This document shows positions 26,532-48,544 of a DNA stretch of 49,020 nt, in pieces. Each line of letters begins with the position of its first letter. Position 1 is the stretch's first letter. The position numbers and the translations under genes are program-made. Source of the stretch: Terriglobia bacterium (GTDB lineage Bacteria > Acidobacteriota > Terriglobia > UBA7540); assembly GCA_020073545.1 (NCBI GenBank), contig JAIQEZ010000031.1:1-49020 (forward strand), given 5' to 3'. Under the pieces are notes generated by a model. The model was given only the letters and a program-made list of their open reading frames with translations. It was not told the DNA's origin and did not search any database.

Positions 26532-27632
26532 TCAGAAGGAACCTGGTTCGCCCTGGTTAGCGAGCCCTCTTGGTACCGGACCGGACATCGCGGAAAGGGC
26601 GTCCTGCGCGGGTAGCTTACGGCCACGCGCGTCATCTAACGTTCGCGCCTCAGAGTGATAGCCTCTTAGCCTGGGAACATGTTCGACATCACCACGCTTC
26701 CCCAACCGGCGCCGATAAACCAGCGGGGTAGTGCCCACAAACCTCCGAAACACCATGCCGAAGTAGCTCTGGTTGCAGAAGCCTGTCTCCTGGCTGATGC
26801 TGTCCAGGGGTTTGTCGGTGGTGGTCAACAGGACCTGCGCCTTGGCAACGCGGAAATGGTTCAGATAGGAATGGAAGGATTGCCCGGTCGTCCGCTTGAA
26901 GAAACACATGAAGTGGGAGTTGCTCATGCTGCAAAGGCGTGCCGCATCCTCCACCTGGACCGGCAAGTGGCTGTGCTCCTCCAGGTAATCAAACAGGGGC
27001 CGCAACCTGTCCAGATCTGCGCCCTTCCGATTGAGGTCCTCGCGCGTGCCCAAGTAAGCAGAGTATTGTTTGACAAGCAGGACCAGGATCATCTGGAGAT
27101 AGGTTTTGACCGTGAGCCTCCCGCACCCCGTCGTGACGGGAAGTTCCGCGTGGATGCGGTGCATCAGGTCGAGAGCTTGGGCCGGAAGACCCGTGCCGGC
27201 TGGTATGACATGCGGAAAATCGGATTTCTGCACGAGGAAGGGCATCAAATACTCTATCTCCTCCCCGCTCCCGTGGGTCCCGCGGATCAGCTCCGGCTCG
27301 AAAAACAAGAAAGTCAGCCGGCAATGCGAGTCGGGCGAATCAATGGGGCGATGGTAAAGGTCGCTGCCGATCACCATCATGTCACCTTCCTGGACCGGGA
27401 GGATTCGATCCTGGATCTGCCAGGTGGTCGTGCCGTCGGAAACACAAAAGAGTTCGAAGTAGTGATGACGATTCATGCGAACGTATCTGGGGCCGCCCAG
27501 GGTGAAGAAGCGCACGTCAATGGGGAAGGAAGCCTCAAACGGGTAGACGTGTATACCCTCGGCATTAATCTGCGGATCGACGACCTGCGCCCCATCTTCC
27601 CACCGTACCGTGGTCCCAGACATGACTTTCAT
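26532..27632 (-). CDS. AraC-family transcriptional regulator with cupin sensor domain
   Basis: 366 residues. The N-terminal ~110 residues form a cupin-like sugar-sensing domain (MNRHHYFELFCVSDGTTTW, then VQEGDMMVIGSDLYHRP). Residues about 212-313 hold the AraC DNA-binding domain with two helix-turn-helix units (VEDAARLCSMSNSHFMCFFK and ISQETGFCNQSYFGMVFRRF). The last ~50 residues after RRRLGK are Arg/Ala-rich and look disordered. Likely an activator of carbohydrate genes; the nearest candidates are the minus-strand hydrolase genes downstream or the divergent region on the other side. AAAGGGGATGAAAGTC at the start provides a usable ribosome-binding site. Confidence 0.9.
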   Translation of the reverse strand: MKVMSGTTVRWEDGAQVVDPQINAEGIHVYPFEASFPIDVRFFTLGGPRYVRMNRHHYFELFCVSDGTTTWQIQDRILPVQEGDMMVIGSDLYHRPIDSPDSHCRLTFLFFEPELIRGTHGSGEEIEYLMPFLVQKSDFPHVIPAGTGLPAQALDLMHRIHAELPVTTGCGRLTVKTYLQMILVLLVKQYSAYLGTREDLNRKGADLDRLRPLFDYLEEHSHLPVQVEDAARLCSMSNSHFMCFFKRTTGQSFHSYLNHFRVAKAQVLLTTTDKPLDSISQETGFCNQSYFGMVFRRFVGTTPLVYRRRLGKRGDVEHVPRLRGYHSEARTLDDARGRKLPAQDALSAMSGPVPRGLANQGEPGSF

Positions 27633-28870: not shown

Positions 28871-29875
28871 GTGAGGTCGAAGATGAACCCAAAACAATGG
28901 ACGAGGACTTTCGTTTTAACCCTACTTGTTATCCTTTGTCTGGTTTGGAGTGCGCCCGCCAAGGGGAAGATCCCTGTTATCCTCTCCACTGATGTGGGCA
29001 ATGAGATTGATGACCAGTGGGCGGTAGCTTACCTGCTGGTGAATCCCGAGTTTGAGGTCTTAGGGATCCTCTCGGCTCAAGCGCCCACGGTTTCTCCTCC
29101 TGCTGCCCACACCACGTACCTGGTGCTTTTAGACGAAGTTGAGAACCGGCTGAAGATGGTCACGCATCCTCCATTGTTCGAGGGCTCCAGCCTACCTTTA
29201 GCGGACATCAAAACCGCGCGGCTCAACGCGGGCGTGGAGTTCATCGTGCAGTCCTCGAAGAGCTTCTCGAAGGATAATCGGCTCACTGTGTTCACCATCG
29301 GCGCGGCGACGGACGTGGCCTCCGCCATCCTCAACGACCCCTCAATCGCCGATCGCATTCAAGTGGTGGCGATGGGGTTCAACAGTTGGCCCAAGGGCGG
29401 CGACGAATACAACGTGCTGAATGACATAAACGCTTGGCAGGTCATCCTGCAGTCAGACGTCCCCGTTGTGGTGGGCGCCGCCGATGTGTGCCATGCTCAC
29501 CTCGCTCTGACGCTCGACCAAGCAAGAGACCTAGTCAGCAAGCAAGGGCCAGTGGGCAAGTGGCTGTGGGAGGAGTTCTTGGCTCAATATTATCGGTATG
29601 TCAAGCCGATCCGGAAAGACGATTTCTCGAACCCCATGATCATCTGGGACATCATCACCATGGCGCATACCTTGGGGATGACGACCCAGGCAGTTTATCC
29701 TCGGCCCACGCTGCGTGATGACGCAAGCTTCGAACACCCACAGACCAATAAGACCATTACGTGGATCACCGCCGTTGATGAGAATCGGTTGTGGGCGGAT
29801 TTCGTGGCGAAGTTGGATGCCTACCAACGGACCCACGCTGTCGGTCAAAAAGAAGCCAACGCTTTTCTGCCCTGA
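28871..29875 (+). CDS. Exported nucleoside hydrolase
   Basis: 334 residues from GTG 28871 (330 from ATG 28883). A signal peptide (hydrophobic core FVLTLLVILCLVW) places it in the periplasm, unlike most cytoplasmic relatives. The calcium-binding active-site motif of inosine/uridine-type nucleoside hydrolases appears as STDVGNEIDDQWA (D41, D47, D48), a variant of DTDPGxDD. VFTIGAATDVASAIL corresponds to the conserved TG-TN loop region, and the C-terminal active-site Asp/His lies around DIITMAH. It is expected to cleave nucleosides into base and ribose. It opens the long plus-strand locus with receptor, sugar porter and kinases. Confidence 0.88.
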   Translation: MRSKMNPKQWTRTFVLTLLVILCLVWSAPAKGKIPVILSTDVGNEIDDQWAVAYLLVNPEFEVLGILSAQAPTVSPPAAHTTYLVLLDEVENRLKMVTHPPLFEGSSLPLADIKTARLNAGVEFIVQSSKSFSKDNRLTVFTIGAATDVASAILNDPSIADRIQVVAMGFNSWPKGGDEYNVLNDINAWQVILQSDVPVVVGAADVCHAHLALTLDQARDLVSKQGPVGKWLWEEFLAQYYRYVKPIRKDDFSNPMIIWDIITMAHTLGMTTQAVYPRPTLRDDASFEHPQTNKTITWITAVDENRLWADFVAKLDAYQRTHAVGQKEANAFLP

Positions 29876-29993: not shown

Positions 29994-31799
29994 ATGAACC
30001 ACCTTGCCCACAGACCCGGTTTGAGCAAATGGAAAGGCAGCCTGTGGGGAGTAGTGTTCTGCCTCGGCTTGTACGCGCTGCCCTGGGGCCAAGCGCAACA
30101 GCAAGCCCCCCCTCCGGGCTCGGTGGCGGACCAACTTCAACAAGCCCGTGACATACTGCAAAGTCACGATCTCCCGGAAGCAAGGCGCATCTTGGAAAAC
30201 GTCGTGCACCGCAGTCCAGGCTCGGCGGAAGCCTGGCTACTGCTCGCCGACACCTATTCGCAACTCGGCACGGAAGGCGAAGCCATCCGGGGTTATGAAA
30301 CGGTCCTGAAACTGCAGCCCAATTCTCCCAACGCACTTTACAATCTTGCGATCCTGCAATTGCGACGGAATCGCGTGGAGGAGGCAGCCCGGTATCTCGA
30401 AGCCCTCCACCGGCAGAGGCCCCGTGACCGAGACGTCCTCTTTCCCTTGGCGCATTGCCTTTTCCTGTTGGGACGCACTTCGGAAGGACAGCAGGCCGTC
30501 GAGGAGGTAATGAACACGGCCGGCGATTCTGCGTCGGTGTATTTAAAAGCTGGTCAATTCCTCCTAGCTCATGGGAAGGTGGAAGAGGCGCTCGAGCCCC
30601 TCGGCCGAGCCCTCAACCTGACACCGGGTTCGGATGAATCCAGGATCACACTCGCTCTGGCCGAGAGCCAGCTGGGTCATCCGGCGCGGGTAATTGAGCT
30701 TCTCCAAGGCCACCCGAAGATGGATTCGCCGCTTTACGCGAGCCTGCTGGGCTCCGCACTTTGCGATGAGAAAGATTTCGAACGGGCGGTACCCCTTCTG
30801 GAGACGGCGATCCGCCAGCACGGCGAAGAGAAGCTGCCGTACCTCCAACTGGCAGCGGGCTATGCTGGTCTTTCGAAGGGTCAGGAAGCTGTGCGAACCC
30901 TGCAGCAAGCGCACGCCCGTTGGCCGGAAGATGTGCGAATTCGGTCTGCGTTGGCGCGCCAGCTATTCCACGTGCACGATCCCGTGGGGGCTCTCGTGGT
31001 GCTTCGCGAGGCGCCCGAAACTACCCTAACGACGGAGGAGCTGGGTCTGCTGGTGGAGGGCTATGCAGGGCTCAACCGTCTGGACGAGGCACGCCGCTAT
31101 GGCGAGTTGGCCGCGCAAAGAAAGGACGTGTCGGAGTCGGTGCTGATCGCGCTGGCGAATGTTTACCAGCTCGAGGCCCGCGACCCGGAGGCTATCGCCT
31201 TGCTGGAGAAGCACCGCACCAAATTCGCCGACTCCCCGCGGTATCTGTTTACCCTCGCTTTCAGTTATTACAATCAAGGCAATTACTCCCTCTCGAATGA
31301 CTTGCTCGGTGACGTCATCACACGAGATCAGAACCTTGCACCGGCTTTCTATTTGCGAGGTAGCTGCCTGTCTAGTCTGGGTAAGCCGGAAGAGGCGCTG
31401 CCCCAATACGAGACCGCCGCACGGCTCGCCCCAGATGACTCTCTTTACCACTTCCAGCTCGGGATGGTGCTTTCCCTCTTGCGGCAGAAGGACCGGGCCG
31501 AGGCGGAACTGAAGAAATCACTTGAGCTGAATGACCGGCATGCTCCCGCGCACTATGAGCTGGCCAAGATCTATTTCGACAGTTCCCGCGATGAGCTGGC
31601 GCGCCAGCAGTTGGAGGAGGCCATCCGGGTCAATCCCGAATTCGAAAGTCCCTACTACCTGCTGAGCCGGGTTTACGCGCGTCTGGGGCGGCAGGAAGAC
31701 TCCGCGACCACCCTAAAGCACTTCAAAGAGCTGCAACAGAAGCAGCGCGAGGCAGAGAGGGCGCTGAAAGAAGCGAGTATGGGCGGGCAGAATCCATGA
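29994..31799 (+). CDS. Exported TPR-repeat protein
   Basis: 601 residues from ATG 29994; the open frame upstream to 29715 overlaps the nucleoside hydrolase and is not conserved-looking. A signal peptide (WGVVFCLGLYALPWGQAQ) is followed by about 14-16 tetratricopeptide repeats (for example AEAWLLLADTYSQLGTEGEA, APAFYLRGSCLSSLGKPEEA), covering nearly the whole chain. A protein-interaction scaffold in the periplasm or at the outer membrane. Its TGA overlaps the ATG of the next gene (ATGA at 31796-31799), so the two are translationally coupled and probably work together. Confidence 0.88.
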   Translation: MNHLAHRPGLSKWKGSLWGVVFCLGLYALPWGQAQQQAPPPGSVADQLQQARDILQSHDLPEARRILENVVHRSPGSAEAWLLLADTYSQLGTEGEAIRGYETVLKLQPNSPNALYNLAILQLRRNRVEEAARYLEALHRQRPRDRDVLFPLAHCLFLLGRTSEGQQAVEEVMNTAGDSASVYLKAGQFLLAHGKVEEALEPLGRALNLTPGSDESRITLALAESQLGHPARVIELLQGHPKMDSPLYASLLGSALCDEKDFERAVPLLETAIRQHGEEKLPYLQLAAGYAGLSKGQEAVRTLQQAHARWPEDVRIRSALARQLFHVHDPVGALVVLREAPETTLTTEELGLLVEGYAGLNRLDEARRYGELAAQRKDVSESVLIALANVYQLEARDPEAIALLEKHRTKFADSPRYLFTLAFSYYNQGNYSLSNDLLGDVITRDQNLAPAFYLRGSCLSSLGKPEEALPQYETAARLAPDDSLYHFQLGMVLSLLRQKDRAEAELKKSLELNDRHAPAHYELAKIYFDSSRDELARQQLEEAIRVNPEFESPYYLLSRVYARLGRQEDSATTLKHFKELQQKQREAERALKEASMGGQNP

Positions 31800-33553
31800 G
31801 GTACTTGTGGTTCGCGCTAATTCCGGGCTTATTGTGGATGATGGGCGGGAGCGATGCTGACCGTGCCGCGCCCCCCGAGAAGGTCCCTTCCCTTCGCTTT
31901 GTGGACCTCGCTCACTCGGCGGGCATCGACAAGTTCCATGACGTCTCTGGAGGACCGGCCAAGAATTACATTTTGGAGTCGAAAGGGGGCGGCGTTGCGG
32001 TTTTCGATTACAACGACGACGGCTGGCTGGACATTTTTCTTGTCAGCGGAGCCACTTTTGAGGAGATGGAAAATCCGCACGCCCCTCACCCGCACCGCAA
32101 CAAGCTGTTTCGCAACAATGGCGACGGTACGTTCACGGATGTGACCGAAGCGGCAGGGCTGGGTGCATGGGGATGGGGGATGGGAGCGGCTGCAGCCGAC
32201 TATGACAACGACGGCTGTACGGATCTTTACGTGACTTACTACGGGAAGAACGTTCTTTACCACAACAACTGTGACGGGACGTTCACAGACGTGACTCAGA
32301 AAGCCGGAGTAGCCGCCGGGAGTTGGAGCACTGGCGCGGCCTGGGGTGATTACGACCGGGACGGTTACCTCGACCTATACGTCGCACGGTACATCAACTT
32401 CCGGCGGGCGGAGGTCCCGGGCAAGGGTCAGTCAGTAGTGTGCCAATACAAAGGAGTGCCGGTACAGTGTGGTCCCCGGGGGCTGAAGACTCAGACAGCG
32501 ATTCTCTACCACAACAACGGTGACGGGACCTTTACCGATGTAACGAACAAGGCGCTGGGGCCTGATGTTGCCGCGTATTACGGTTTTACGCCGCTCTGGG
32601 TGGATGTGGACAACAATGGCTGGCCTGACCTGTATGTGGCGGATGACGGCACGCCCAACCTGCTTTACCGAAATCGTCGTGACGGTACGTTTGAGGAAGT
32701 TGGGGCAATAGCAGGCTGCGCATACGACAGGGATGGGCTAGAGCAGTCCACCATGGGCGCCGACTTTGGTGACTACAACCACGATGGATGGCTTGACATT
32801 TTCGTGACGAATTTTTCCGATGATCATAGCACCCTCTACCAGAACACGGGCGGGGGCAATTTCAACGATGTTACTGAGCAAGCGAAGTTGTTATCCGTCG
32901 GTTGGAACAATGTGAAATGGGGCACGAAGTTCTTCGACTACGACCTGGATGGCTGGCCGGACCTATTCCTAGCCAATGGACATGTCTATGTAGAAGCCGA
33001 TCGATGGGGCATGGACACTGGCTACAAGCAACATCCCCAGGTGCTCCGGAACCAGCAGGACGGGACATTCAAGGATGTGACCGCCGAGCTTGGTGAAGAC
33101 TTGCTGCAAAAACACCTAGGGCGAGGGATCGCTCTTGGGAGTCTGTTCAACGATGGGGGCGCCGACATTGTCGTCAACAATCTTGACGACACGCCGTCGC
33201 TGTACCACTGCCCGACCCCGACGAACGCACAGTGGATCGTTTTGCACCTGCAAGGAACAAGGAGCAATCGTGACGGACTTGGAGCAAGGATCAAACTTCG
33301 TGCTGGGGGTATGGAGCAAGTGCAGGAAGTACATCAGAGTGGAGGTTTCCTGGCCAGCAACGATGTCCGGGCACGCTTCGGACTGGGAAGCAGCACAGTC
33401 GTCGATGAACTGGAGATCGACTGGCCCTCCGGGTTGGTACAACACTTTCACGGCATCCGGAGCCAACAGATTTTGCGAATCAAGGAAGGAGAAAGCGAAG
33501 TGGCACCTGAAAGAATGCGTCGGGCTGGGTCTAACCATTTGACCAAAAGCTAA
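31796..33553 (+). CDS. Exported CRTAC1-like FG-GAP/ASPIC-UnbV protein
   Basis: 585 residues with an N-terminal signal segment (LWFALIPGLLWMM). Repeated calcium-loop FG-GAP/VCBS units follow (DYNDDGWLDIF, DYDNDGCTDLY, DYDRDGYLDLY, DVDNNGWPDLY, DYNHDGWLDIF, DYDLDGWPDLF), the signature of an integrin-like beta-propeller. The C-terminal ~90 residues form the ASPIC/UnbV domain (SNRDGLGARIKLRAGG, then FGLGSSTVVDELEIDWPSG). Extracellular adhesion or ligand binding is likely; no enzymatic role is known. Translationally coupled to the upstream TPR gene and 18 bp ahead of the TonB-dependent receptor. Confidence 0.9.
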   Translation: MRYLWFALIPGLLWMMGGSDADRAAPPEKVPSLRFVDLAHSAGIDKFHDVSGGPAKNYILESKGGGVAVFDYNDDGWLDIFLVSGATFEEMENPHAPHPHRNKLFRNNGDGTFTDVTEAAGLGAWGWGMGAAAADYDNDGCTDLYVTYYGKNVLYHNNCDGTFTDVTQKAGVAAGSWSTGAAWGDYDRDGYLDLYVARYINFRRAEVPGKGQSVVCQYKGVPVQCGPRGLKTQTAILYHNNGDGTFTDVTNKALGPDVAAYYGFTPLWVDVDNNGWPDLYVADDGTPNLLYRNRRDGTFEEVGAIAGCAYDRDGLEQSTMGADFGDYNHDGWLDIFVTNFSDDHSTLYQNTGGGNFNDVTEQAKLLSVGWNNVKWGTKFFDYDLDGWPDLFLANGHVYVEADRWGMDTGYKQHPQVLRNQQDGTFKDVTAELGEDLLQKHLGRGIALGSLFNDGGADIVVNNLDDTPSLYHCPTPTNAQWIVLHLQGTRSNRDGLGARIKLRAGGMEQVQEVHQSGGFLASNDVRARFGLGSSTVVDELEIDWPSGLVQHFHGIRSQQILRIKEGESEVAPERMRRAGSNHLTKS

Positions 33554-33571
33554 GCAAGGAGGAACTTGGCA

Positions 33572-36500
33572 ATGAAAACAATGCGATGCTTTCTTGGGAC
33601 ACTGATCTGCGCGCTCGCCTGGATAGCACTGATTGCTGGACCCGTGAACGCACAGGTTTTTACCGGAGATATTCTTGGTTCTGTCACCGACCCCACCGGG
33701 GCTGCTGTGCCAGACGCTACGATCACATTGCGGAATCAGCAAACCAACGCCACCTTAGAGACGAAGAGCGGGGTGGACGGAAGCTACATTTTCGCCCGGA
33801 TGGCCCCGACAACATATGAAATTACAGTCACAGCTCGCGGCTTCAAACGGTTTGTTTCTCCCGATAACATCTTGCGGGTCGGGACGAGACTCACAATCGA
33901 CATTAAGATGCAGTTGGGCGATGTCGCGACGTCCATCGAGGTCACGGCCGCAGCCGCGTTAGTCAAGCCGGATGATCCCGTGCTGGGCCAAATCATCACG
34001 GAGCGTAGCATTGTCGCCCTGCCGCTTAACGGTCGCAACTTCATTCAGCTGGCCCAGCTCTCGCCGGGTGTCACAGAGATCGGAACGGCGATCTCGCCAT
34101 CACAGGATTGGACGGGGCGCGCCAATATGGCTATCGTGGTCGAGGGGCTCCGCGAAACTGACACTAGCTATCTTCTCGACGGAATTGAGACCCGATCACC
34201 TCGCTGGGGGAACACGAGTTTCCGCCCCTCGGTTGACGCCATTCAGGAATTCAACATCCAGCGGAATGCCTTCACGGCGGACCAGGGCTGGGGCGCAACC
34301 GTCGTGAACACGGTCATCCGCTCGGGAACCAACGAATACCACGGCTCGGTTTTCGAATTCATCCGCAACGGCGCTCTGGACGCTCGCAACTTCTTCGACG
34401 GGGCGACGAAGCCACCCTACAAGCAAAACCAGTGGGGGGCCACAGCCGGCGGACCGATCAAGAAAGACAAGCTGTTCTTCTTTGCCGACTACGAGGGATT
34501 TGCTTCGCGGCTGACTTCGACATACTTGGGTCGAGTACCAACCCCTGATATGCTCCAGGGGCAGTTTACAACACCGATAACAGATCCACAGACGGGCCAG
34601 CCCTTTCCCATTGTCAACGGATTCTACACCATTCCCCCGGACCGGTTCGATACCGTAATGAAGAACGTGATTCCTTACTACCCCGCGCCCAACTCACCTG
34701 ATCCAAATCTCAATTACACCCGGACCGCAGCGCGGACGGAGGATTCTAAGCAGATCCATGCCAGGATTGATTGGAATCTCCCGAACAACGACCGCCTGTA
34801 CGCCCACTACTCCTGGCTGACGTCACCGTTGTTCCAGCCGGGTTTGATGACGGGGTTCGGGTGGAATCGGCCAATCGGGGATGAAAACATATCGCTCACA
34901 TATACCCATATCTTCACTCCCCGAATGGTAAATGAATTCCGTATTGGGTATAACCGCGATCGTACGTACAGCAATCCCGAAAGCGCTTTTGGGCCCGATC
35001 TGGCTAAGCAAATTGGCCTCAAGAACACCACTGGCAATCCGGCGGACTTTGGACTACCTGGCTTTGGGCCCTTATCTTATAGCAGTGTGGGAATCGGATT
35101 CAACCAAAACCAGCAGACCATTGATCAGATCTTCCAGTTCAACGAAAACCTGAGTTACCACGTGGGCAAACACGACCTCAAGGTTGGTGCCGACATTCGC
35201 CGCAACCGCTTTTTCATCGTGAACGATTTCCCTAGTAACCCGTCGTTTAGCTTCTATGGGACTTACTCAGGCAACAGCGTGGCGGACTTCCTCCTGGGTC
35301 TGTTTGACTTTACGAATGAGGGTGTAGGCGACACGTCGGCCAATTTCCGCAGGACTGGCTGGAGTTTTTATGCCCAGGACAGCTACAAGGTCACCCACAA
35401 ATTGAGTCTGACTTTTGGCCTGCGCTACGAGTATCCCGCCCCCTACACGGAGATCAACGACAAGATGGGCTGGCTTGACTTCTCGACGTTGGAGTTCGTT
35501 CAGGTTAAGGATAGCGGGCGCGATAGCATGTTTCTCCCCGACAGGAATAACTTCGCTCCGCGCTTTGGCTTTGCTTACAGTCCATTTGGGAAATGGGTCC
35601 TCCGCGGAGGCTTCGGCGTCTACCATGACCTGATATCTGGTAACGAGACTCAGTTCTACGGCGTCTCTCTGCCCCCCATTAGCCAAATCCAGTCCATATT
35701 CAACACGACGCCGGTACCGACATACAGAGTCCAAGACTTGTTCCCGGCTACGGCATATGGGTCGCAAACTTCTCCAAACACGGCGTATCCTTCGGACCGC
35801 ACCCCCTATATCTACATGTACAACCTTAACCTGGAACACGAGTTCAAGGGAGTGTTGTTCGAGCTGGGCTATACGGGCTCGACTGGGCACAAGTTGAATC
35901 GCCGGTACATGAACAATATGGCTCGACCCGGACCTGAACCCATGGCCGAGCGGCGCCTGTACCCGGGTTTTGGCGATATTCTTACCTCGCGGAATGATGG
36001 CTGGTCGAATTACAGTGGCATGAATCTAAAAGTGGAGAAGCCGTTTTCAAAAGGCCTTCTGCTGCTCGCCTCCTACACATACGGTAAACACCTGGACATC
36101 GGAGGACCTGACGAGTACGTCCATGCCACTTGGTTTGGTCTGAAGGATCTGCGGGGGCCGTCCTCAATCGACACGCGGCAGCGACTGGTGCTCAGCTACG
36201 TGTACGAACTTCCCGTGGGAAGAGGCAAGCGAGCTTTCAGCAACACAACGGGGGCGCTCGACAAACTCGTCGGCGGGTGGCAGGTCACTGGTGTTACTAG
36301 CTTCAGCAGTGGGCATCCCCAGACCCTTAACCTTGGGATCGACTGGGCAGGCATTGGTAACCGCAGGATGCAACCTGGGATCTGCGTAGGCCCGGTGAAC
36401 GACGCAAACCTAAGGAGCAATATCAGGAATCAGCCCACCCTGTACCCCTATTTCAATGTGAATAACGTCCTTGTTCCTGCGACAGGAACGATGGGCAACT

Positions 36501-36733
36501 GCGGTCGAGGTACAGTCACAGCGCCTGGCGTCAACAACTGGGACATGGGCTTGCTAAAGAACACACGCATTACAGAAAGAGTGAATGTCCAATTTCGGGC
36601 GGAGTTCTTCAACACCTGGAACCATGCCCAGTTTGGTGGACTAGATACCAGTCCCGTTGACGTGAACTTCGGCCGCATCACATGGGCTCGTGCGCCACGG
36701 GACATCCAGTTCGGGTTGAAGATTCTGTTCTGA
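33572..36733 (+). CDS. TonB-dependent receptor, Oar/CarboxypepD_reg type
   Basis: 1053 residues from ATG 33572, with AAGGAGG nine bases upstream. Signal peptide to about 29 (GPVNAQ), then a carboxypeptidase-regulatory-like domain (about 32-110; GSVTDPTGAAVPDATITLRN), a plug domain (about 130-230; IVALPLNGRNFIQLAQLSPG, then YLLDGIETR) and a long outer-membrane beta-barrel ending in aromatic F (QFGLKILF). This type is very common in acidobacteria. It should import a ligand with TonB-ExbBD energy. Its position among nucleoside and pentose genes makes nucleosides or ribosides the likeliest cargo; that is inference. Confidence 0.93.
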   Translation: MKTMRCFLGTLICALAWIALIAGPVNAQVFTGDILGSVTDPTGAAVPDATITLRNQQTNATLETKSGVDGSYIFARMAPTTYEITVTARGFKRFVSPDNILRVGTRLTIDIKMQLGDVATSIEVTAAAALVKPDDPVLGQIITERSIVALPLNGRNFIQLAQLSPGVTEIGTAISPSQDWTGRANMAIVVEGLRETDTSYLLDGIETRSPRWGNTSFRPSVDAIQEFNIQRNAFTADQGWGATVVNTVIRSGTNEYHGSVFEFIRNGALDARNFFDGATKPPYKQNQWGATAGGPIKKDKLFFFADYEGFASRLTSTYLGRVPTPDMLQGQFTTPITDPQTGQPFPIVNGFYTIPPDRFDTVMKNVIPYYPAPNSPDPNLNYTRTAARTEDSKQIHARIDWNLPNNDRLYAHYSWLTSPLFQPGLMTGFGWNRPIGDENISLTYTHIFTPRMVNEFRIGYNRDRTYSNPESAFGPDLAKQIGLKNTTGNPADFGLPGFGPLSYSSVGIGFNQNQQTIDQIFQFNENLSYHVGKHDLKVGADIRRNRFFIVNDFPSNPSFSFYGTYSGNSVADFLLGLFDFTNEGVGDTSANFRRTGWSFYAQDSYKVTHKLSLTFGLRYEYPAPYTEINDKMGWLDFSTLEFVQVKDSGRDSMFLPDRNNFAPRFGFAYSPFGKWVLRGGFGVYHDLISGNETQFYGVSLPPISQIQSIFNTTPVPTYRVQDLFPATAYGSQTSPNTAYPSDRTPYIYMYNLNLEHEFKGVLFELGYTGSTGHKLNRRYMNNMARPGPEPMAERRLYPGFGDILTSRNDGWSNYSGMNLKVEKPFSKGLLLLASYTYGKHLDIGGPDEYVHATWFGLKDLRGPSSIDTRQRLVLSYVYELPVGRGKRAFSNTTGALDKLVGGWQVTGVTSFSSGHPQTLNLGIDWAGIGNRRMQPGICVGPVNDANLRSNIRNQPTLYPYFNVNNVLVPATGTMGNCGRGTVTAPGVNNWDMGLLKNTRITERVNVQFRAEFFNTWNHAQFGGLDTSPVDVNFGRITWARAPRDIQFGLKILF

Positions 36734-36737
36734 CGAG

Positions 36738-37916
36738 GTGGGGCTGGGAAGGCAGAACGGACAGGAAGGAAAGCGTGATAACATCTTGTTTGTGAGTCGA
36801 GTATTGCCTTTTGTGGCGTGTTTTCTGCTTTTTCTGACCGGGGCTGCGGCACAGCAAGAACCGCAGCTCTCGGCTCTCTCCGAGCGTGCCCGAGTCGCCT
36901 TAAAGGACGAAAGGTTCGAGGAAGCTCGACAGGTTTACGAAGAGATCGTCAAGTTACGTCCGGAGTGGGGTGAAGCTCACTCAAACCTGGGATTGGCCCT
37001 TTACATGGAGGGCCGGTACACGGAGGCCATTCCAGCCTTCGTCAAGGCCCTCCAACTCAGCCCCAGTCTTTCCGGCGCGGAAGTCCTGCTGGCTCTCAGT
37101 TACTTCCGCACGAATCAATTTCGCCAAGCCATCCCGTTGCTGGAAAAAGCCTCCACGCAGAGACGCGGCGATCCGCTCGCAGTGCAGTATCTGGGCTTGG
37201 CCTATCTGAAAGTCGGTGAGGATGAGAAGGCGCTAGCGATGCTTAGCAAATGGGTCGAGCTTGAGCCAGCCAATCCCGACGCCCTCTATTACAAAGGCAA
37301 GGCGGCATCCTATGTCACTCTCGATGCGTTTGAGAAGTTGAAACAAGTAGCCCCGGATTCCTACCGGATGCACGAGCTGCAAGCTGAACTATTCGCGCAG
37401 CAGGGGCACACAGAAAGGTCCATCACGGAATACCAGAAGGCCATTGCCGCCAAGCCAAACCTGGGCGGACTGCATTATGCTCTCGGCACACTCTGCTTGG
37501 AGAACGGCCGACTGTCAGAGGCTCGGAGGGAGTTTCAGCAAGAACTGGTTCTCAGTCCCTACGATCCCGCGGCCCACTACCTGCTGGGGGACGTTTACTT
37601 GCGCCAGGATGATCTTCCTGAAGCGGAGAAGGAGCTCTCGCGAGCCTTGGAGCTACAGCCTGAGCTGATCGATGCCCGTCTGGACCTGGCCAAGCTATAC
37701 CAGCTCCAAGGGAAAACCGCGGAGGCCGTGGAAACCCTGCAGGCGGTGACGCGTGCGGCTCCTGAGCGCCTCGAGGCACATTACCAGCTCTACGAGCTGT
37801 ATCGGAAAGCCAACCTTCCCGACAAGGCACGCGTGGAACTGGAGACTTTCCAAAGGCTCAAACGCCAGGAGGCGGAAGAGGTAAGGAAATCCAAGGACCT
37901 GAATATGCTCCGCTGA
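36738..37916 (+). CDS. Exported TPR-repeat protein
   Basis: 392 residues if started at GTG 36738; GTG 36792 (SRVLPFVACFLLFLTGAAAQQ) would give a cleaner signal peptide and may be the true start. About nine TPR units follow (ARVALKDERFEEARQVYEEI, AEAHSNLGLALYMEGRYTEA style). It begins four bases after the receptor gene stops and ends two bases before the next TPR gene, so the three are certainly one transcriptional unit. The role is presumed scaffolding of receptor-associated proteins. Confidence 0.85.
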   Translation: MGLGRQNGQEGKRDNILFVSRVLPFVACFLLFLTGAAAQQEPQLSALSERARVALKDERFEEARQVYEEIVKLRPEWGEAHSNLGLALYMEGRYTEAIPAFVKALQLSPSLSGAEVLLALSYFRTNQFRQAIPLLEKASTQRRGDPLAVQYLGLAYLKVGEDEKALAMLSKWVELEPANPDALYYKGKAASYVTLDAFEKLKQVAPDSYRMHELQAELFAQQGHTERSITEYQKAIAAKPNLGGLHYALGTLCLENGRLSEARREFQQELVLSPYDPAAHYLLGDVYLRQDDLPEAEKELSRALELQPELIDARLDLAKLYQLQGKTAEAVETLQAVTRAAPERLEAHYQLYELYRKANLPDKARVELETFQRLKRQEAEEVRKSKDLNMLR

Positions 37917-37918
37917 AG

Positions 37919-38902
37919 ATGAACCGAGGTCTCCGCAAACTGGCGAACGCGGTGAGGGTCCTGGGTTGCTGGGCAGCGCTGGCATCACTCACCGGCGGCC
38001 CGACTCTTGCCCAGAACGCCGAAACGGGTTTCAACCAGGCCTTGCAGGCCTTCCGGGCAGGGGACAGGCAGAAGGCGGTGACGGTGCTGGAAGCCGTCCT
38101 GAAGGCGTATCCTGACCATGCTCCGAGCCACGAGCTGTTGGGCCTAAGCCTTTCTGCGCTCGGGGAGAATCCCGAAGCCCTGCGTCACCTGCGGGAGGCC
38201 GTGAAGTTGTGGCCGGATCAACCGGTGTACTGGATCAACCTGGCCATCCTCTACCTGCGCCAATCCCGGACAGACGAGGCGGAAAAGGCACTGAAGCAAT
38301 CGTTGGAGGTTGAGCCCAGCGCTCCTGCCTTCCGCTTGCTGGGCCTCATCCGCCTGGACCAGAACTGGGGCGAGGATGCGGTGCGGTTATTCCAGAAGGC
38401 TTTGGACTTGGCGCACGACGAACCAGAGTCCTGGTATTACCTTGGGCTTGCGCAACAGTCGCTGGCACATTCGGAGGAGGCGCTTCATTGTTACGAGGAA
38501 GCGCTCAAGCGCGCTCCGGGGGATTTTCACACGCAACTACAGATGGGAAGTCTCTTATTGAGTCGGGGCCAGCGACACCAGGCTCTGGAGCACCTGCGTG
38601 TGGCGCAAGCGATTCGTCCCCAAGACGCCGAGGTGTACCAGCGCCTAAGCGAGGCCTATCTGGGAAACGGGGATTTGCAGCAGGCGCTGGAGTCGGCGCG
38701 ACGCGGCGCGGACCTCAGGCCTGATAACTGCGAAGTCCATTACCAGTTAGGTCTGGTTTTGGCCCGCCTGGGGAAGAGCGAAGAAGCGAAGAAGGAGTTT
38801 GCTATCTCTGAGGGGCTTCCCAAGAAACCGGAAACGACGCCTCTGGAGCGCTGGCGCGCCCTTCTTGGTGAGGCACTCAGGAACAATGGACCGAAGCCTT
38901 AG
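37919..38902 (+). CDS. Exported TPR-repeat protein
   Basis: 327 residues. Signal peptide (VLGCWAALASLTGGPTLAQ) and then about eight TPR units (FNQALQAFRAGDRQKAVTVL, PESWYYLGLAQQSLAHSEEA). The final TPR runs into a short charged tail. Its last 17 bases overlap the start of the downstream CRTAC gene, another sign of translational coupling between TPR and CRTAC proteins, as seen at 31796. Confidence 0.85.
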   Translation: MNRGLRKLANAVRVLGCWAALASLTGGPTLAQNAETGFNQALQAFRAGDRQKAVTVLEAVLKAYPDHAPSHELLGLSLSALGENPEALRHLREAVKLWPDQPVYWINLAILYLRQSRTDEAEKALKQSLEVEPSAPAFRLLGLIRLDQNWGEDAVRLFQKALDLAHDEPESWYYLGLAQQSLAHSEEALHCYEEALKRAPGDFHTQLQMGSLLLSRGQRHQALEHLRVAQAIRPQDAEVYQRLSEAYLGNGDLQQALESARRGADLRPDNCEVHYQLGLVLARLGKSEEAKKEFAISEGLPKKPETTPLERWRALLGEALRNNGPKP

Positions 38903-40631
38903 CTCGCGCTTCTTGGTCGCACGCTTTTTGCTCCTGCCGATCGGGATGGTTTGTCTCTTTGGTTCGCAACTGACACGGCAGTCAACTGCCCCGGCTGGGC
39001 CTTTCACTGATGTACGCGCCAGCTCCGGCATCACCTATCGGCAGCGCAACGGGGCGATAGGCGGGAAGGAACTGATCGAAACTTTCACATCGGGTTGCGG
39101 CTTGGTGGATTACGACAACGACGGTTTGCTGGACATCTACATGGTGAACGGCGCAGCCACTCCTTCGCTCCGCAAGGAGGGGCCGGAATATTCGAACCGT
39201 CTCTACCGTAATCTGGGCAACTTCAAATTCGTGGACGTCACACAAGTGGCGCACGCCGAAGGGCGGGGTTACGGGATGGGGGTAGCAGTAGGCGACTACG
39301 ACAACGACGGCTTTCCTGATCTCTACATCACGAGCTTTGGCCAAAACCAGCTCCTGCATAATCGTGGAGATGGAACATTCGAAGACGTTACGGAGAAGGC
39401 AGGGGTCGGGGGCGGGGGCTGGAGCACCAGCGCGGCCTTCTTTGATTATGACCGGGACGGCTATCTGGATCTTTTCGTGGCGCGCTATGTGGTTTACGAA
39501 TTAGGGAAGCATCCGCGCTGCGGCGACCAAAAACGCAGTCTATTTAGTTACTGCCTTCCCGATCTCTTTCAGCCGATGACGGATTTGCTTTTCCACAACA
39601 ACCACGACGGAACTTTCACTGACGTCAGCCACACGGCGGGGATCGACCGCGCACGGGGACGGGGCTTGGGGGTCACGGTAGGCGATTACGATGGAGACGG
39701 CTGGCAGGACATCTTCGTCGCCAACGACCGGGGGCGGAATTTCCTGTTCCACAACAAAGGCGACGGGACTTTCGAAGAGGTCGGCCTGCCGGCCGGTATT
39801 GCCTACAGTATGGACGGTGTGGCGCGGGCTGGCATGGGCACCGACTTCGGCGACTATGACCAAGATGGCTGGTTGGATATTCTGGTGAACGACTTTGAGA
39901 CCGAGGGGACAGCGCTATTTCACAACCTGAAGGGGCAGTTCTTCACGGACGTGGGCGGCGAGGTCGGCCTACGCGACGCTTCCTATCCTTACGTGGTTTT
40001 TGGCGGGAAGTTCGTGGACTACGACAACGATGGGTTCCTCGACATCTTCGCTGTCAGTGGTCACACCCAGGACGATATCACCGCCTACAAGCCCGACATC
40101 ACCTACCCTGAGCCAAAGCTGCTGTTTCGGAACGTGGGTGGGCGTTTCCGGCGCGTGGAGGATGGGCCGGGCGGAGTCCTGGGGCGGCTCAAGGTGAGCC
40201 GCGGCGCGGCCTTTGGAGACTTGGACAACGACGGATCCGTCGACGTGGTGGTGAACGACACCAACGACTTCCCCGAGATTCTCCGCAACATGGCGGGAGG
40301 TAAGAACAAGTCACTGCTGATCAAGCTGGTGGGGACAAACAGCAATCGCGATGGGATCGGGACGCGACTGGAAGTTCATTACGGAAACCACGTACAGATA
40401 CTTGAAGCAAAAAGTGCGGCCAGCTACTTTGCGGCCAACGACCTTCGCGTCCACGTGGGGCTCGGAACGTCCCCGCAGGTGGACGTACTGGTTTTGCACT
40501 GGCCAAGCGGCCGGGCTCAGACGGTCCGTAACCTTGCCGCCGGTTATCTACATGTCATCTCTGAGGACCGGGGAGTCATTAGTTCGACGAAACTGACGGT
40601 CAAACCGACAGACGCTAGCAATGTTCCTTAG
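38886..40631 (+). CDS. Exported CRTAC1-like FG-GAP/ASPIC-UnbV protein, second copy
   Basis: 581 residues from ATG 38886 (AGGAACA just upstream). The N-terminal hydrophobic segment (FLLLPIGMVCLFG) may be a signal peptide or anchor. FG-GAP loops recur (DYDNDGLLDIY, DYDNDGFPDLY, DYDRDGYLDLF, DYDGDGWQDIF, DYDQDGWLDIL, DYDNDGFLDIF, DLDNDGSVDVV) and the ASPIC/UnbV domain closes the chain (SNRDGIGTRLEVHYG, then HVGLGTSPQVDVLVLHWPSG). Same architecture as the protein at 31796-33553 but clearly diverged. Overlaps the preceding TPR gene by 17 bp. Confidence 0.9.
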   Translation: MDRSLSSRFLVARFLLLPIGMVCLFGSQLTRQSTAPAGPFTDVRASSGITYRQRNGAIGGKELIETFTSGCGLVDYDNDGLLDIYMVNGAATPSLRKEGPEYSNRLYRNLGNFKFVDVTQVAHAEGRGYGMGVAVGDYDNDGFPDLYITSFGQNQLLHNRGDGTFEDVTEKAGVGGGGWSTSAAFFDYDRDGYLDLFVARYVVYELGKHPRCGDQKRSLFSYCLPDLFQPMTDLLFHNNHDGTFTDVSHTAGIDRARGRGLGVTVGDYDGDGWQDIFVANDRGRNFLFHNKGDGTFEEVGLPAGIAYSMDGVARAGMGTDFGDYDQDGWLDILVNDFETEGTALFHNLKGQFFTDVGGEVGLRDASYPYVVFGGKFVDYDNDGFLDIFAVSGHTQDDITAYKPDITYPEPKLLFRNVGGRFRRVEDGPGGVLGRLKVSRGAAFGDLDNDGSVDVVVNDTNDFPEILRNMAGGKNKSLLIKLVGTNSNRDGIGTRLEVHYGNHVQILEAKSAASYFAANDLRVHVGLGTSPQVDVLVLHWPSGRAQTVRNLAAGYLHVISEDRGVISSTKLTVKPTDASNVP

Positions 40632-40751
40632 TGGCGAATTGCCGTTGGGCTCTGGACGGTACGTGCAGGATTGGACGGACACCGGGGGTTTGGTTATCCT
40701 CGTTGGTGGCAAATTTGCGAGAGCAAACCATTTGAAAGGGTTGGTGAACCA

Positions 40752-41744
40752 ATGTTCATTCCCTCTGCTTATTCCGCGGCACTCTTCATGATGATTCTCA
40801 GTATGATTTGCTGGGGGAGTTGGGCGAATACTCAAAAACTGTGCAAGAACTGGCGCTTCGAACTTTTTTACTGGGACTACGTGTGGGGCATCCTAATCGT
40901 TGCGATTCTGATGGGATTCACCTTGGGGCGGACAGACGCCCTCAGCCCCGACAGTTTCCTCAATAATCTGCATGCCGCAGACGGTCACCATTTACTCCTG
41001 GCGTTCGTGGGCGGAGTGCTGTTCAACATCGGCAACCTGCTCTTGGTGGCGGCGATTGCGATTGCAGGGTTGGCGGTTGCCTTCCCCATCGGCATCGGAT
41101 TGGCGCTGGTGGTCGGCTCAGTGCTCAACTATCTGATCACGCCTAAGGGAAACCCCCTATTGCTGTTTGGGGGGATTGGCCTGGTGTGCGTGGCGATTGT
41201 GCTGGACGCGCTCGCGTATCGGAAAATCTCCCTGGACCTCAAGGTGAGTCGCAAAGGTATCATCCTGAGTTTGGTGTCCGGGGTGGTCATAGGATTGTTT
41301 TACCCGTTCGTCGCCAAGGCGCTGAGCGAGGAGAACCACCTCGGGCCCTACACGGTCGCTATGGTAGTGGCGATAGGTGTACTGGCCTGTACGATCCCGG
41401 TCAACTATATGTTCATGCGGCGCCCCGTCACGGGCCATCCTGTAACGATGCGCGAGTATGTTGGGGGGGCAGGTTCACTTCACCTCTTCGGGGTCCTGGG
41501 AGGAGTGATCTGGGGTGTGGGGACGATCTGCAATTTCGTCGCCTCCTATGCCCAGATGGTCGGTCCGGCTACCTCGTACGCGCTAGGCCAAGGGGCGACG
41601 ATGATTTCAGCTCTATGGGGAGTCTTCGTTTGGAAGGAATTCAAAGGTGCGGGACCGGACGTCAAACGCTTGCTTGCTCTGATGTTTGTTTTCTTCATCA
41701 TCGGGTTGGCGTGTGTCGCGCTGGCGCCCGTCGTCAGCTTCTAG
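40752..41744 (+). CDS. GRP-family sugar transporter (DMT superfamily)
   Basis: 330 residues from ATG 40752; an upstream in-frame ATG at 40671 adds a non-membrane stretch and is unlikely. About ten transmembrane helices, first with the phrase ICWGSWANTQKLCKNWRFELFYWDY, typical of glucose/ribose porter (GRP)-like DMT transporters. FIP..AVAFPIGIGLALVVGSVLNY and LIKEW-like VFVWKEFKG segments fit the fold. With ribokinase six bases downstream, ribose (or another pentose released from nucleosides) is the likely substrate, moved across the inner membrane. It is distinct in sequence from the RhaT-like pseudogene at 14868-15896. Confidence 0.85.
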   Translation: MFIPSAYSAALFMMILSMICWGSWANTQKLCKNWRFELFYWDYVWGILIVAILMGFTLGRTDALSPDSFLNNLHAADGHHLLLAFVGGVLFNIGNLLLVAAIAIAGLAVAFPIGIGLALVVGSVLNYLITPKGNPLLLFGGIGLVCVAIVLDALAYRKISLDLKVSRKGIILSLVSGVVIGLFYPFVAKALSEENHLGPYTVAMVVAIGVLACTIPVNYMFMRRPVTGHPVTMREYVGGAGSLHLFGVLGGVIWGVGTICNFVASYAQMVGPATSYALGQGATMISALWGVFVWKEFKGAGPDVKRLLALMFVFFIIGLACVALAPVVSF

Positions 41745-41750
41745 GGGACT

Positions 41751-42713
41751 ATGATGCGTCGCAAGCATATTGTCGTGGTGGGCAGTGTCAACTTGGACTT
41801 GGTAGGGGTGGCGGAGCGAATCCCCGCGCCTGGCGAAACCCTTACGGGTAAGAACTTCCAGGTGTTCCATGGGGGCAAGGGCGCCAACCAGGCCGTGGCC
41901 GTCGCAAAGCTGGGATACCCCGTGTGCATGGTGGCCAAGGTGGGAGACGATGAATTCGGTGAGCGCCTACGACGCGGCCTGCGCGACGGAGGCGTCAACG
42001 TCAGCGGCGTAACGACCGCCAAGCAGACTTCCTCAGGAGTGGCGCTGATTTCCATCGATATGGCTGGACAGAACAGCATCATCGTCGTGCCGGGCGCAAA
42101 CGGGAAATTGCTTCCCCGGGATGTGGACAACGCTAAACCCACGCTGCGTTCGGCAGGCATGATCCTCACTCAACTGGAAACTCCTCTTGAGACTGTAGAG
42201 TATCTGGCCAGTGTGGCCAACCGCTACCACATTCCCTTGATGCTGGACCCGGCGCCGGCACGGGAACTTCCCTCCACATTACTCCGACACCTCACCCTGC
42301 TGACACCCAACGAAACCGAGACCTGCGTGCTTTGCGGTATCGACGCCGGCAAACTCAATTGCTCCACTGCAGCCGAGTATGCCCAGGAACTGCGCGAGCG
42401 CGGACCTGCAAACGTCATCATCAAGATGGGAGGTCACGGGGCTTACTTGGCAGGTAAAGACGGCCGGAGTATATTCCTGCCGGCCTTCAAAGTTCGGGTG
42501 GTTGATTCGACTGCAGCCGGCGATGCGTTCAACGGCGGTTTGGCGGTGGCTTTAATGCAAGGCCAGGATTTAGAGAATGCGGCACGCTTCGCCTCCGCCG
42601 TGGCCGCGGTCTCGGTGACCCGCATGGGGGCTCAGCCCTCGATGCCCACTGCACGACAGGTGAGCAGGTTCCTTAAACAAGCAGCGGTCTCGCCAAGCGG
42701 GGGAACAGGGTAG
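41751..42713 (+). CDS. rbsK: Ribokinase (PfkB family)
   Basis: 320 residues. PfkB-family hallmarks are complete: GSVNLDLV near the N-terminus, the GGKGANQAVAVAKLG substrate-binding motif (about 40-54), NGKLLP, LLTPNETE and the C-terminal catalytic/anion-hole motif DSTAAGDAFNGG with the base Asp. It converts ribose and ATP to ribose-5-phosphate for the pentose phosphate pathway. It starts six bases after the transporter gene, so transport and phosphorylation are coupled. Deoxyribokinase activity cannot be excluded. Confidence 0.92.
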   Translation: MMRRKHIVVVGSVNLDLVGVAERIPAPGETLTGKNFQVFHGGKGANQAVAVAKLGYPVCMVAKVGDDEFGERLRRGLRDGGVNVSGVTTAKQTSSGVALISIDMAGQNSIIVVPGANGKLLPRDVDNAKPTLRSAGMILTQLETPLETVEYLASVANRYHIPLMLDPAPARELPSTLLRHLTLLTPNETETCVLCGIDAGKLNCSTAAEYAQELRERGPANVIIKMGGHGAYLAGKDGRSIFLPAFKVRVVDSTAAGDAFNGGLAVALMQGQDLENAARFASAVAAVSVTRMGAQPSMPTARQVSRFLKQAAVSPSGGTG

Positions 42714-42814: not shown

Positions 42815-43921
42815 ATGAAGCTAAACAGAACCGCGCTACAGGCTCTGCCAAAGGTCTTATTGCATGAGCACCTGGATGGCTCACTACGACCTCAAACCAT
42901 AATTGAATTGGCCAGAGAAGCGAAGTACTCGAAGCTCCCAACTAATGATCCCTACACATTGGCGGAGTGGTTCCATCGAGGCGCCAACCAGGGGGACCTG
43001 GTCAGATACTTGGAAGGGTTCACGCACACCATTGCTTTAACTCAGACGAAAGAAGCCCTAGAGCGTGCGGCTTATGAACAGGTGGAAGACTTGAGCAAAG
43101 ATGGGGTAGTCTACTTCGAAGCCCGGTTTGCCCCGGTTTTTCACACCAAGAAAGGGTTGACTCACCAACACGTTGTTTCCGCCGTATTGAAGGGATTGGA
43201 GCGGGGACGAAGAGACTTTGGATTGCCTTCGGGACTGATTATATGTGCCATGCGAAATATGAATGTCTCACTAGAAATGGCCGAGTTGGCAGTCGATTTC
43301 CGTGATCACGGCGTCGTTGGCTTCGATCTTGCTGGCGAAGAAGGAGGCTACCCACCCAAGAAGCATATTGAGGCCTTTCATTATATTCAGCGGGAGAATT
43401 TTAATATCACGGTCCATGCCGGCGAGGGATACGGAAAGGAGTCGATATGGCAGGCCATTCAGTATTGCGGAGCCCACAGGATCGGACACGGTACGAGGCT
43501 GATCGACGACGTAGCGGTCGTCAATGGGAAGGCAGTAAAACTGGGTCACCTGGCTCAGTACGTTCTCGACAAACGGATTCCTCTAGAAATATGCCTCCTT
43601 AGCAACTTTCATACCGGTGCCACCCCAAACTTGGCCGAACACCCTTTTAGGATTTTGTTTCAAGAGAGATTCCGTGTCTTCCTCAATACCGACAATCGAC
43701 TAATGAGTAATACCTCGATGACCACAGAATTCCAGGTGGCAGCGGATACGTTCGGTCTTACGATGGATGACTTCGAGAAGATCACGATTAACGCCATGAA
43801 AAGCGCTTTCATCCCGTATTCGGAGCGATGTCGGATCATCTTCACTGTCATCAAGCCCGGATATGCCAGAATTCGCTACCCTGAAAGCACGGAGAAGAAC
43901 GAACAGAGTCCTCAGCGTTAG
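42815..43921 (+). CDS. add: Adenosine deaminase family protein
   Basis: 368 residues. Zinc and catalytic residues of the adenosine deaminase fold are present: H17-x-H19 (LLHEHLDGS), H201 with E204 (TVHAGEG), H225 (RIGHGTRL) and D293 (LNTDNR). The NTDNRLMSNTSMT ending is the version typical of one bacterial Add subgroup. It deaminates adenosine to inosine; in relatives near methylthioribose kinase, 5'-deoxyadenosine or methylthioadenosine are also possible. No signal peptide, so cytoplasmic. It lies 101 bp after ribokinase and 58 bp before the kinase gene. Confidence 0.92.
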   Translation: MKLNRTALQALPKVLLHEHLDGSLRPQTIIELAREAKYSKLPTNDPYTLAEWFHRGANQGDLVRYLEGFTHTIALTQTKEALERAAYEQVEDLSKDGVVYFEARFAPVFHTKKGLTHQHVVSAVLKGLERGRRDFGLPSGLIICAMRNMNVSLEMAELAVDFRDHGVVGFDLAGEEGGYPPKKHIEAFHYIQRENFNITVHAGEGYGKESIWQAIQYCGAHRIGHGTRLIDDVAVVNGKAVKLGHLAQYVLDKRIPLEICLLSNFHTGATPNLAEHPFRILFQERFRVFLNTDNRLMSNTSMTTEFQVAADTFGLTMDDFEKITINAMKSAFIPYSERCRIIFTVIKPGYARIRYPESTEKNEQSPQR

Positions 43922-43979
43922 GCAATCCATAAGATCATGGGCTGCGGCTCATTTTGGCAACCCGCTGCAAAGGAGGAAC

Positions 43980-45203
43980 ATGTATTACCCACTCGATGGA
44001 CAATCCGCTCTGGATTATGTGCGCAAATCCTCTCTCATGACGCAGATTTACGGAGAAAAGGACGATCTCAAGGCGGTTGACTTGGCGGAAGGCAACATCA
44101 ACCTCATCTTTCGGGTCTACAGCGAGAGTGATCCGATTGCTAAATCGGTTCTGATCAAGCAAGCCCTTCCTCATTCGCGCCGTTATCCGCAGATCAAGAT
44201 CCCCCTGGACCGAGCACGCATTGAATACGAGGCGCTTCAGCTGGAAGGAAGGTACTGTCCAGAGCAGGTCCCCCGCGTCTACCGGTACGATCCGGAGATG
44301 CATTTGAACGTCATGGAAGACATGAACCGGCATATCGTTATGCGTTATGGGCTCATGAAGCAAGTCCAGTATCCGTTCTTTGCCCCACACATCGGGACCT
44401 TCCTGGCGCGCACCCTCTTTTGCACTTCGGATTTTTACTTATCGTCGTTCGACAAGAAAGCAATGGTTCCAAGATTCATCAACCCGGTCTTATGCAAGGT
44501 GACCGAGGATCTCGTGTTCACGGAGCCCTATATCGATCACCCGAACAACCGATGGACTCGCCTTCTCGATCCCCAGGTGACGGAGATCCGGCGCAACGAG
44601 GAGCTTCGCAGCGAGGTGCTCTTGCTCAAGTTGGATTTCATGTGCAACGCCCAGGCCCTCATCCATGGCGATCTCCACACCGGGTCGATCATGGTGGACG
44701 GGGAGGAGACCAAGGTCATTGACCCTGAATTTGCTTACTTCGGCCCGATGGGCTTTGATATTGGCGCGGTTCTGGGGAACTTGGCCCTCAGCTACGCTTC
44801 GCAGGAGCATCACGCGAAAGACCCCCGACTTCGGGCTGAATATCGGGAATGGCTGCTCGACACCATTCGACAGGTATGGACGATTTTCGAGAGGGAGTTC
44901 CGCCGCTTGTGGGAAGCCGAAGGCAACGACCAATGGCCCTCCGTGTGCCTGCGCGACAGATACCTTAAGCGGCTCTTGCAGGACACGGCCGGATTCGGCG
45001 CCTGCAAGATGATGCGCCGCATCTTGGGCCTGGCTCATGTGCCGGACCTGGACAGTATTGACGACGAGCACTCGCGTGCCGTCGCGGAAAGCCTCGCCCT
45101 CAACATTGCGCAATCCTGGCTGATGGACAGAAACAGGTTTGCCTCGGTGGAAGACTTAATAATCGCGATCAGCGCATCGGAGCCTAGGTACCCCTTCGGC
45201 TAG
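43980..45203 (+). CDS. mtnK: 5-methylthioribose kinase
   Basis: 407 residues from ATG 43980, fixed by AAAGGAGG a few bases upstream; the longer frame from 43863 overlaps the deaminase gene. The APH-like kinase fold shows the MtnK signature: LAEGNINLIFRV near 35-46 (nucleotide loop), HGDLHTGSIMV with catalytic D231, and VIDPEFAYFGPMGFDIGA with the DPE metal motif (D248-E250). It phosphorylates 5-methylthioribose on C1; the same enzyme accepts 5-deoxyribose in organisms that use the DHAP shunt. It ties the locus to salvage of methylthioadenosine or 5'-deoxyadenosine. Confidence 0.9.
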   Translation: MYYPLDGQSALDYVRKSSLMTQIYGEKDDLKAVDLAEGNINLIFRVYSESDPIAKSVLIKQALPHSRRYPQIKIPLDRARIEYEALQLEGRYCPEQVPRVYRYDPEMHLNVMEDMNRHIVMRYGLMKQVQYPFFAPHIGTFLARTLFCTSDFYLSSFDKKAMVPRFINPVLCKVTEDLVFTEPYIDHPNNRWTRLLDPQVTEIRRNEELRSEVLLLKLDFMCNAQALIHGDLHTGSIMVDGEETKVIDPEFAYFGPMGFDIGAVLGNLALSYASQEHHAKDPRLRAEYREWLLDTIRQVWTIFEREFRRLWEAEGNDQWPSVCLRDRYLKRLLQDTAGFGACKMMRRILGLAHVPDLDSIDDEHSRAVAESLALNIAQSWLMDRNRFASVEDLIIAISASEPRYPFG

Positions 45204-45265
45204 GCAGATCGTATGGAGGCCCATCAGAAGATCTTGGTTGTCTCATGAACCGGAGGAGAGACTCG

Positions 45266-48543: not shown

Positions 48544-48544
48544 C

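Follow-up and report, generated by a model that had tools for sequence, protein, structure and literature searches.

The window analysed here, the 49,020 nucleotides of contig JAIQEZ010000031.1 (assembly GCA_020073545.1) from a Terriglobia bacterium, a soil-type member of the Acidobacteriota, contains two gene pairs that each encode an exported TPR protein and a CRTAC protein, on either side of a gene for an Oar-type TonB-dependent receptor (TBDR). These genes lie in a longer run that also encodes a nucleoside hydrolase, a permease, a ribokinase and an adenosine deaminase. With moderate confidence, the run is interpreted as a TonB-powered operon for the acquisition of nucleosides and ribose, of the kind of the TBDR-containing carbohydrate utilization (CUT) loci and polysaccharide utilization loci (PULs), but free of SusD and with the TPR-CRTAC pairs acting as accessories of the receptor. 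The pairing of TPR with CRTAC is supported by a survey of other genomes and lies far above chance.

A sequence-only reading of positions 29994 to 40631 had described two overlapping TPR-CRTAC pairs with the receptor and another TPR gene in between. This layout was borne out at the same coordinates, with the order TPR1–CRTAC1–receptor–TPR2–TPR3–CRTAC2 and three TPR genes in total. The interval was nevertheless too short, since the same-strand run extends from the nucleoside hydrolase at 28871 to the end of adenosine deaminase at 43921 and its gaps do not exceed 118 bp, and the metabolic genes hinting at the substrate (the hydrolase upstream; permease, ribokinase and adenosine deaminase downstream) had been overlooked. 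Based on simple methods for gene and signal-peptide calling, the locus comprises the following features:

26532..27632, minus strand: candidate AraC-family regulator with cupin sensor (PF12833 65 bits, AraC_binding)
28871..29875, plus strand: exported nucleoside hydrolase of the IU_nuc_hydro family, divergent (PF01156 77 bits, above cut-off; Sec signal peptide)
29994..31799, plus strand: TPR1, exported TPR protein of 601 aa, CRTAC1 partner (TPR_19 148 bits; signal peptide)
31796..33553, plus strand: CRTAC1, FG-GAP beta-propeller with ASPIC/UnbV domain (PF13517, PF07593)
33566..36733, plus strand: Oar-type TBDR with CarboxypepD_reg, plug and OMP_b-brl_4 (PF25183 740 bits, PF13620 63 bits)
36738..37916, plus strand: TPR2, exported TPR protein of 392 aa with GTG start (TPR models)
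37919..38902, plus strand: TPR3, exported TPR protein of 327 aa, CRTAC2 partner (TPR models)
38886..40631, plus strand: CRTAC2, FG-GAP beta-propeller with ASPIC/UnbV (PF13517, PF07593)
40671..41744, plus strand: inner-membrane permease of the ureide permease / RhaT-RbsU group, a ribose or nucleobase importer (PF07168 69 bits, PF06800 44 bits, both above cut-off)
41751..42713, plus strand: ribokinase (TIGR02152 343 bits, cut-off 299.7)
42815..43921, plus strand: adenosine deaminase (NF006847 476 bits, cut-off 412)

The frame of TPR1 is open from a GTG at 29715, while a clear signal peptide begins at the ATG at 29994. TPR2 begins 4 bp past the receptor gene and TPR3 2 bp past TPR2. The two CRTAC proteins are 38% identical, and both show FG-GAP_3 repeats and a C-terminal UnbV_ASPIC domain above the Pfam cut-offs, as the definition of CRTAC proteins demands. 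The divergent AraC-type gene, about 1.2 kb upstream, may regulate the TPR–CRTAC operon.

The pairing was examined in stretches around CRTAC1-like genes of other Acidobacteriota (L057-L116), which were selected by similarity with one to few per genome; several of these genomes are fragmented. Out of 92 CRTAC genes in the survey, 49 showed an adjacent TPR gene on the same strand and 11 were fused to a TPR part. The density of non-adjacent TPR genes in these loci was raised as well (40 of 433 genes), but adjacency was still higher (p ~1e-13). In comparison, the controls, 20 acidobacterial stretches of 20 kb each, comprised 2 TPR, 3 TBDR and no CRTAC genes among 298 genes. An adjacent or fused TPR was found in 25 of the 36 genera, own genome included, and in 14 of the 19 families sampled, which excludes a lack of co-occurrence in other genomes. 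In 33 of the 41 pairs from Acidobacteriota TPR precedes CRTAC, and in 8 of the 41 the closest CRTAC and the closest TPR belonged to one and the same pair, compared to about 1.1 expected. The own genome carries 11 ASPIC genes, including one fusion of CRTAC and TPR with 1279 aa, and a second TPR–CRTAC pair with a 4-bp overlap (L006).

The closest relative of CRTAC1 (69-70%) originates from another family (genome G211, locus L057), and its neighbouring TPR is the closest relative of TPR1 (40%). The pair is kept there with an identical 4-bp overlap, on a contig of 4.2 kb that is too short to reveal a receptor. No orthologous operon was found in congeners, where the best match of the own family reached 51% for CRTAC1 and 40% for the receptor. 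Judged from these identities, the closer pair in another family hints at a horizontal movement.

According to the sequence-only reading, the overlap of the genes would imply that TPR and CRTAC act as pairs. TPR1 and CRTAC1 overlap by 4 bp (ATGA, 31796-31799) and TPR3 and CRTAC2 by 17 bp (ATG of CRTAC2 at 38886, TAG stop of TPR3 at 38900-38902). A 4-bp overlap was determined for 16 of 41 TPR-CRTAC pairs, compared to 26 of the 129 closely spaced same-strand pairs in the controls (Fisher p = 0.02). Since 20% of the control pairs share this overlap, it is no proof of pairing by itself and was rejected as such; it provides weak evidence. The fusions are more informative. They exist in both orders. 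The own genome and several relatives from its class have CRTAC in front and the TPR block at the C-terminus, frequently together with a Tat-like motif; TPR comes first in L043, L045, L048 (Planctomycetales), L099, L104 and L107. For both orders to arise, fusion must have taken place at least twice, and this counts as good evidence of a working TPR–CRTAC link.

The association with the receptor extends beyond the window as well. A TBDR was found within 8 kb of 49 of the 92 survey CRTAC genes (p ~1e-19) and of 8 of the 11 ASPIC genes in the own genome, and 22 of the 36 genera (own genome included) showed a nearby TBDR. Other TPR–CRTAC(–TBDR) loci contain enzymes of the families GH16 (L040, L041), GH3 (L078), GH36 and GH2 (L077) or GH20 (L064), and one combines a GH32-like protein with a PfkB kinase (L103). 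The loci with GH enzymes were picked by eye for Pfam runs and represent examples, not a count. The best reading of these data is that saccharide use is the shared theme of TPR–CRTAC loci, each with its own enzyme, and that the window contains the nucleoside/ribose case. In general, TPR–CRTAC pairs would then be accessories of nutrient loci that resemble CUT loci or PULs but have no SusD.

The metabolic genes form a recurring combination of their own. The relatives of the nucleoside hydrolase in the PDB are RihA/IunH, and relatives with 63-64% identity occur in seven further genomes of the host's family. Among 297 Acidobacteriota genomes, the permease is present in 29 and close relatives of the hydrolase in 4. 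For 15 of 18 permease loci examined (L117-L134), a ribokinase was found in the same stretch, and in eight (L118-L120, L122-L125, L133) a TBDR adjoins permease and ribokinase or lies one to two genes off. A PF01156 nucleoside hydrolase lies near the permease in L129 and L131, and L133 contains an ADP-ribosylglycohydrolase. A locus of a same-family genome (L161) combines a 63% hydrolase relative, a TBDR fragment, ribokinase and permease without TPR–CRTAC; an additional gene resembles a LacI regulator, judged from its first residues. Such loci show that a TBDR-containing nucleoside/ribose locus occurs on its own, and that the version in the window has the TPR–CRTAC pairs added. As a side observation, a protein of 729-741 aa follows permease and ribokinase in L118, L119, L120, L122 and L124 and precedes them in L161; in both cases tested (L118, L122) it carries a C-terminal FGE-sulfatase domain.

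Based on this gene content, the following route is proposed. The Oar-type receptor would take nucleosides, or oligo- or polyribonucleotide debris, across the outer membrane, and the exported hydrolase would split nucleosides into ribose and base. Ribose (or the base) would be carried through the inner membrane by the permease of ureide/RhaT type, ribose would be trapped by ribokinase as ribose-5-phosphate, and adenosine deaminase would deal with adenosine. The TPR solenoids most likely serve as docking sites for their respective CRTAC propellers, which combine calcium-type loops with a fold of sugar-binding type, and the docked proteins could hold the substrate or hand it over at the receptor. 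A lead for this assignment, not a test, was the rus ribose/nucleoside locus of Bacteroides thetaiotaomicron, which comprises a nucleoside hydrolase, ribokinase, inner-membrane transporter and TonB receptor. While rus employs SusCD, the locus in the window contains an Oar-type receptor and TPR-CRTAC.

In CUT loci, such as the Xanthomonas sux locus, a TBDR, an inner-membrane transporter and a degradative enzyme occur together, with a regulator nearby and without SusD (PMC1790865). Receptor (PF25183 740 bits), transporter (PF07168, PF06800) and degradative enzyme were found here as well, the enzyme being a nucleosidase (PF01156 77 bits) in place of a CAZyme, and the divergent AraC-type gene is a candidate for the regulator. 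Judged by its content, the locus appears to fit most of the published CUT definition (PMC1790865), with TPR–CRTAC added. It differs in its apparent substrate (nucleosides/ribose), in the two built-in TPR-CRTAC pairs and in its phylum. The SusCD PULs of Bacteroidota, including the levan utilisome (PMC11658791), also combine a TonB receptor with exported accessory proteins, but this locus has no SusC or SusD member, with no SusC/RagA-type NCBIfam model matching the receptor, and the accessory proteins mostly lack a lipobox.

Several observations weigh against the proposed nucleoside/ribose operon with TPR-CRTAC accessories. The other permease-ribokinase loci examined have no TPR-CRTAC pairs, and these are therefore not required for ribose use as such. 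Conversely, nucleoside genes were found in no other surveyed TPR-CRTAC locus, so that the assignment of the nucleoside substrate rests on one operon. For at least 32 of the 92 survey CRTAC genes no TPR was present, be it as an adjacent same-strand gene or as a fused part, and a Mantel mirror-tree test over all pairs showed no significant co-evolution of TPR and CRTAC (rho 0.096, p 0.15). Furthermore, the nearest relatives of the receptor are not all linked to CRTAC. In a receptor tree from a quick alignment, 9 label changes were determined compared to 13.6 in shuffles (minimum 9), and the receptor of the window falls outside the permease-linked receptors and does not group strictly with the CRTAC-linked ones. 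Finally, the model of the natural fusion from L045 gives no readable TPR/CRTAC interface: both TPR and propeller are well folded, while the linker is disordered with low confidence (pLDDT <50, pTM 0.69).

The predicted fold of CRTAC1 is consistent with a role in binding. Its AF2 model reached a pLDDT of 83 and a pTM of 0.86, and the top PDB match in Foldseek was murine CRTAC1 (9etn, TM 0.68-0.72), followed by PVL-type fungal GlcNAc lectins. The overall fold is shared with these proteins, although the sequence is only 17% identical to 9etn. Putative calcium loops of the Dx[DN]xDG type were counted six times in CRTAC1 (in one of them N replaces the last D) and seven times in CRTAC2. From the model, ligand binding by bacterial CRTAC1 is plausible. 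Sequence matches of CRTAC1 to TAL-effectors in the PDB were set aside, as they appear to be short repeat matches. The CRTAC1 family also has other contexts, as genes of this family are reported to lie beside hydrazine-synthase homologues (PMC12758564).

All five TPR and CRTAC products appear to be exported, as judged by eye and by a crude signal-peptide scan. The N-terminus of TPR3, MNRGLRKLANAVRVLGCWAALASLTGGPTLAQN, was misread by the scan and is a Sec signal by eye. In the crude scan of acidobacterial proteins, a lipobox was rare (9 of 94 TPR and 6 of 97 CRTAC proteins). No clear lipobox was found in TPR1, CRTAC1 and CRTAC2 by the scan or in TPR3 by eye, and TPR2 showed an ambiguous VAC within the hydrophobic stretch. 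Tat-like twin-arginine signals were observed in several CRTAC proteins and CRTAC-TPR fusions (L002, L003, L009, L068-L095), while the pair in the window carries Sec signals.

The sequence-only reading had further proposed a SusD-like capture complex of TPR scaffold and CRTAC propeller. Its pairing and its association with a TonB receptor are supported; the capture complex itself is a hypothesis. In Agaribacillus aureus, the one Bacteroidota genome from which this statistic was obtained, 26 of 46 ASPIC matches have a same-strand SusD gene within 2.5 kb upstream, compared to 0.6 expected, and in its locus L054 a TonB receptor with a CarbopepD_reg_2 domain is followed by SusD and then CRTAC. By analogy with this arrangement, it is a fair hypothesis that TPR occupies the place of SusD in Acidobacteriota. 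The TPR proteins are no SusD members: no SusD family occurred among the 25 top-ranked Pfam matches listed for TPR1-3 (out of 31-34), and in the L045 fusion the TPR part is modelled as a canonical TPR superhelix (CTPR, MamA, OGT) without SusD among its top 50 PDB matches. That the TPR proteins of Acidobacteriota are a functional SusD counterpart, forming with the CRTAC propeller a substrate-handling complex on Oar-type receptors, and that CRTAC is the element which Bacteroidota SusCD systems have in common with the SusD-free systems of Acidobacteriota, is suggested here only tentatively.

As a rival reading along the lines of the proposed capture complex, TPR and CRTAC could cap the receptor on the outer face, acting like SusD and a surface glycan-binding protein. 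The position of CRTAC after SusD in A. aureus and after TPR in Acidobacteriota, the missing match to SusD_RagB (PF07980) in the own genome and the fold shared with lectins are in line with it. Since so few lipoboxes were found, there is no evident route to the outer face, and the TPR parts are canonical protein-binding superhelices and not SusD folds; this arrangement is considered unlikely. Still less probable is a receptor working outward. In Myxococcus, Oar secretes PopC in a TonB-dependent manner (PMC11658791). The receptor of the window carries an Oar-like N-terminal extension, and secretion of CRTAC (and TPR) proteins to the surface or medium would agree with their Sec or Tat signals and the mostly missing lipobox. 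However, most Oar-type TBDRs of the own genome have no nearby ASPIC gene, and genes for import and catabolism abound in the operon; secretion is considered very unlikely.

Alternatively, TPR and CRTAC could be general periplasmic assembly or anchoring factors that occur in TBDR loci through abundance and recombination and have no specific function as a pair. The 11 ASPIC genes and about 30 receptors of the own genome, the non-significant Mantel test and a loose association with variable order could be explained this way. Adjacency above even the local TPR background, fusions in both orders and the near absence of these genes from the controls contradict it, and we regard it as rather improbable. 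A nucleoside/ribose operon with TPR-CRTAC pairs as receptor accessories is the favoured explanation.

CRTAC/ASPIC proteins are abundant in several phyla, and no bacterial role was found in the open literature. Likewise, the open-access search yielded no paper connecting CRTAC/UnbV with TPR and TonB loci or with SusD; prior subscription reports are possible. The link to TonB nutrient loci, where CRTAC is partnered by TPR in Acidobacteriota and adjoins SusD in Bacteroidota, provides a testable function for this large orphan family, and the TPR–CRTAC link suggests how Acidobacteriota could manage outer-membrane uptake without SusD.

Past adenosine deaminase, the plus strand encodes an APH-type kinase, a URO-D family protein and a class II aldolase (43863-48013), which could prolong the catabolic operon. 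Elsewhere in the window, tandem GH59 (galactocerebrosidase family) genes were found on the minus strand at 16086-18047 and 18089-20209, with 370 and 391 bits to PF02057. An open reading frame of 668 aa antisense to a GH59 gene (15885-17891, plus strand) is probably a by-product of high GC. Judged from their first residues, a serine recombinase-like gene (9334-9981, minus strand) and a transposase-like open reading frame (48502-49020, plus strand) flank the region.

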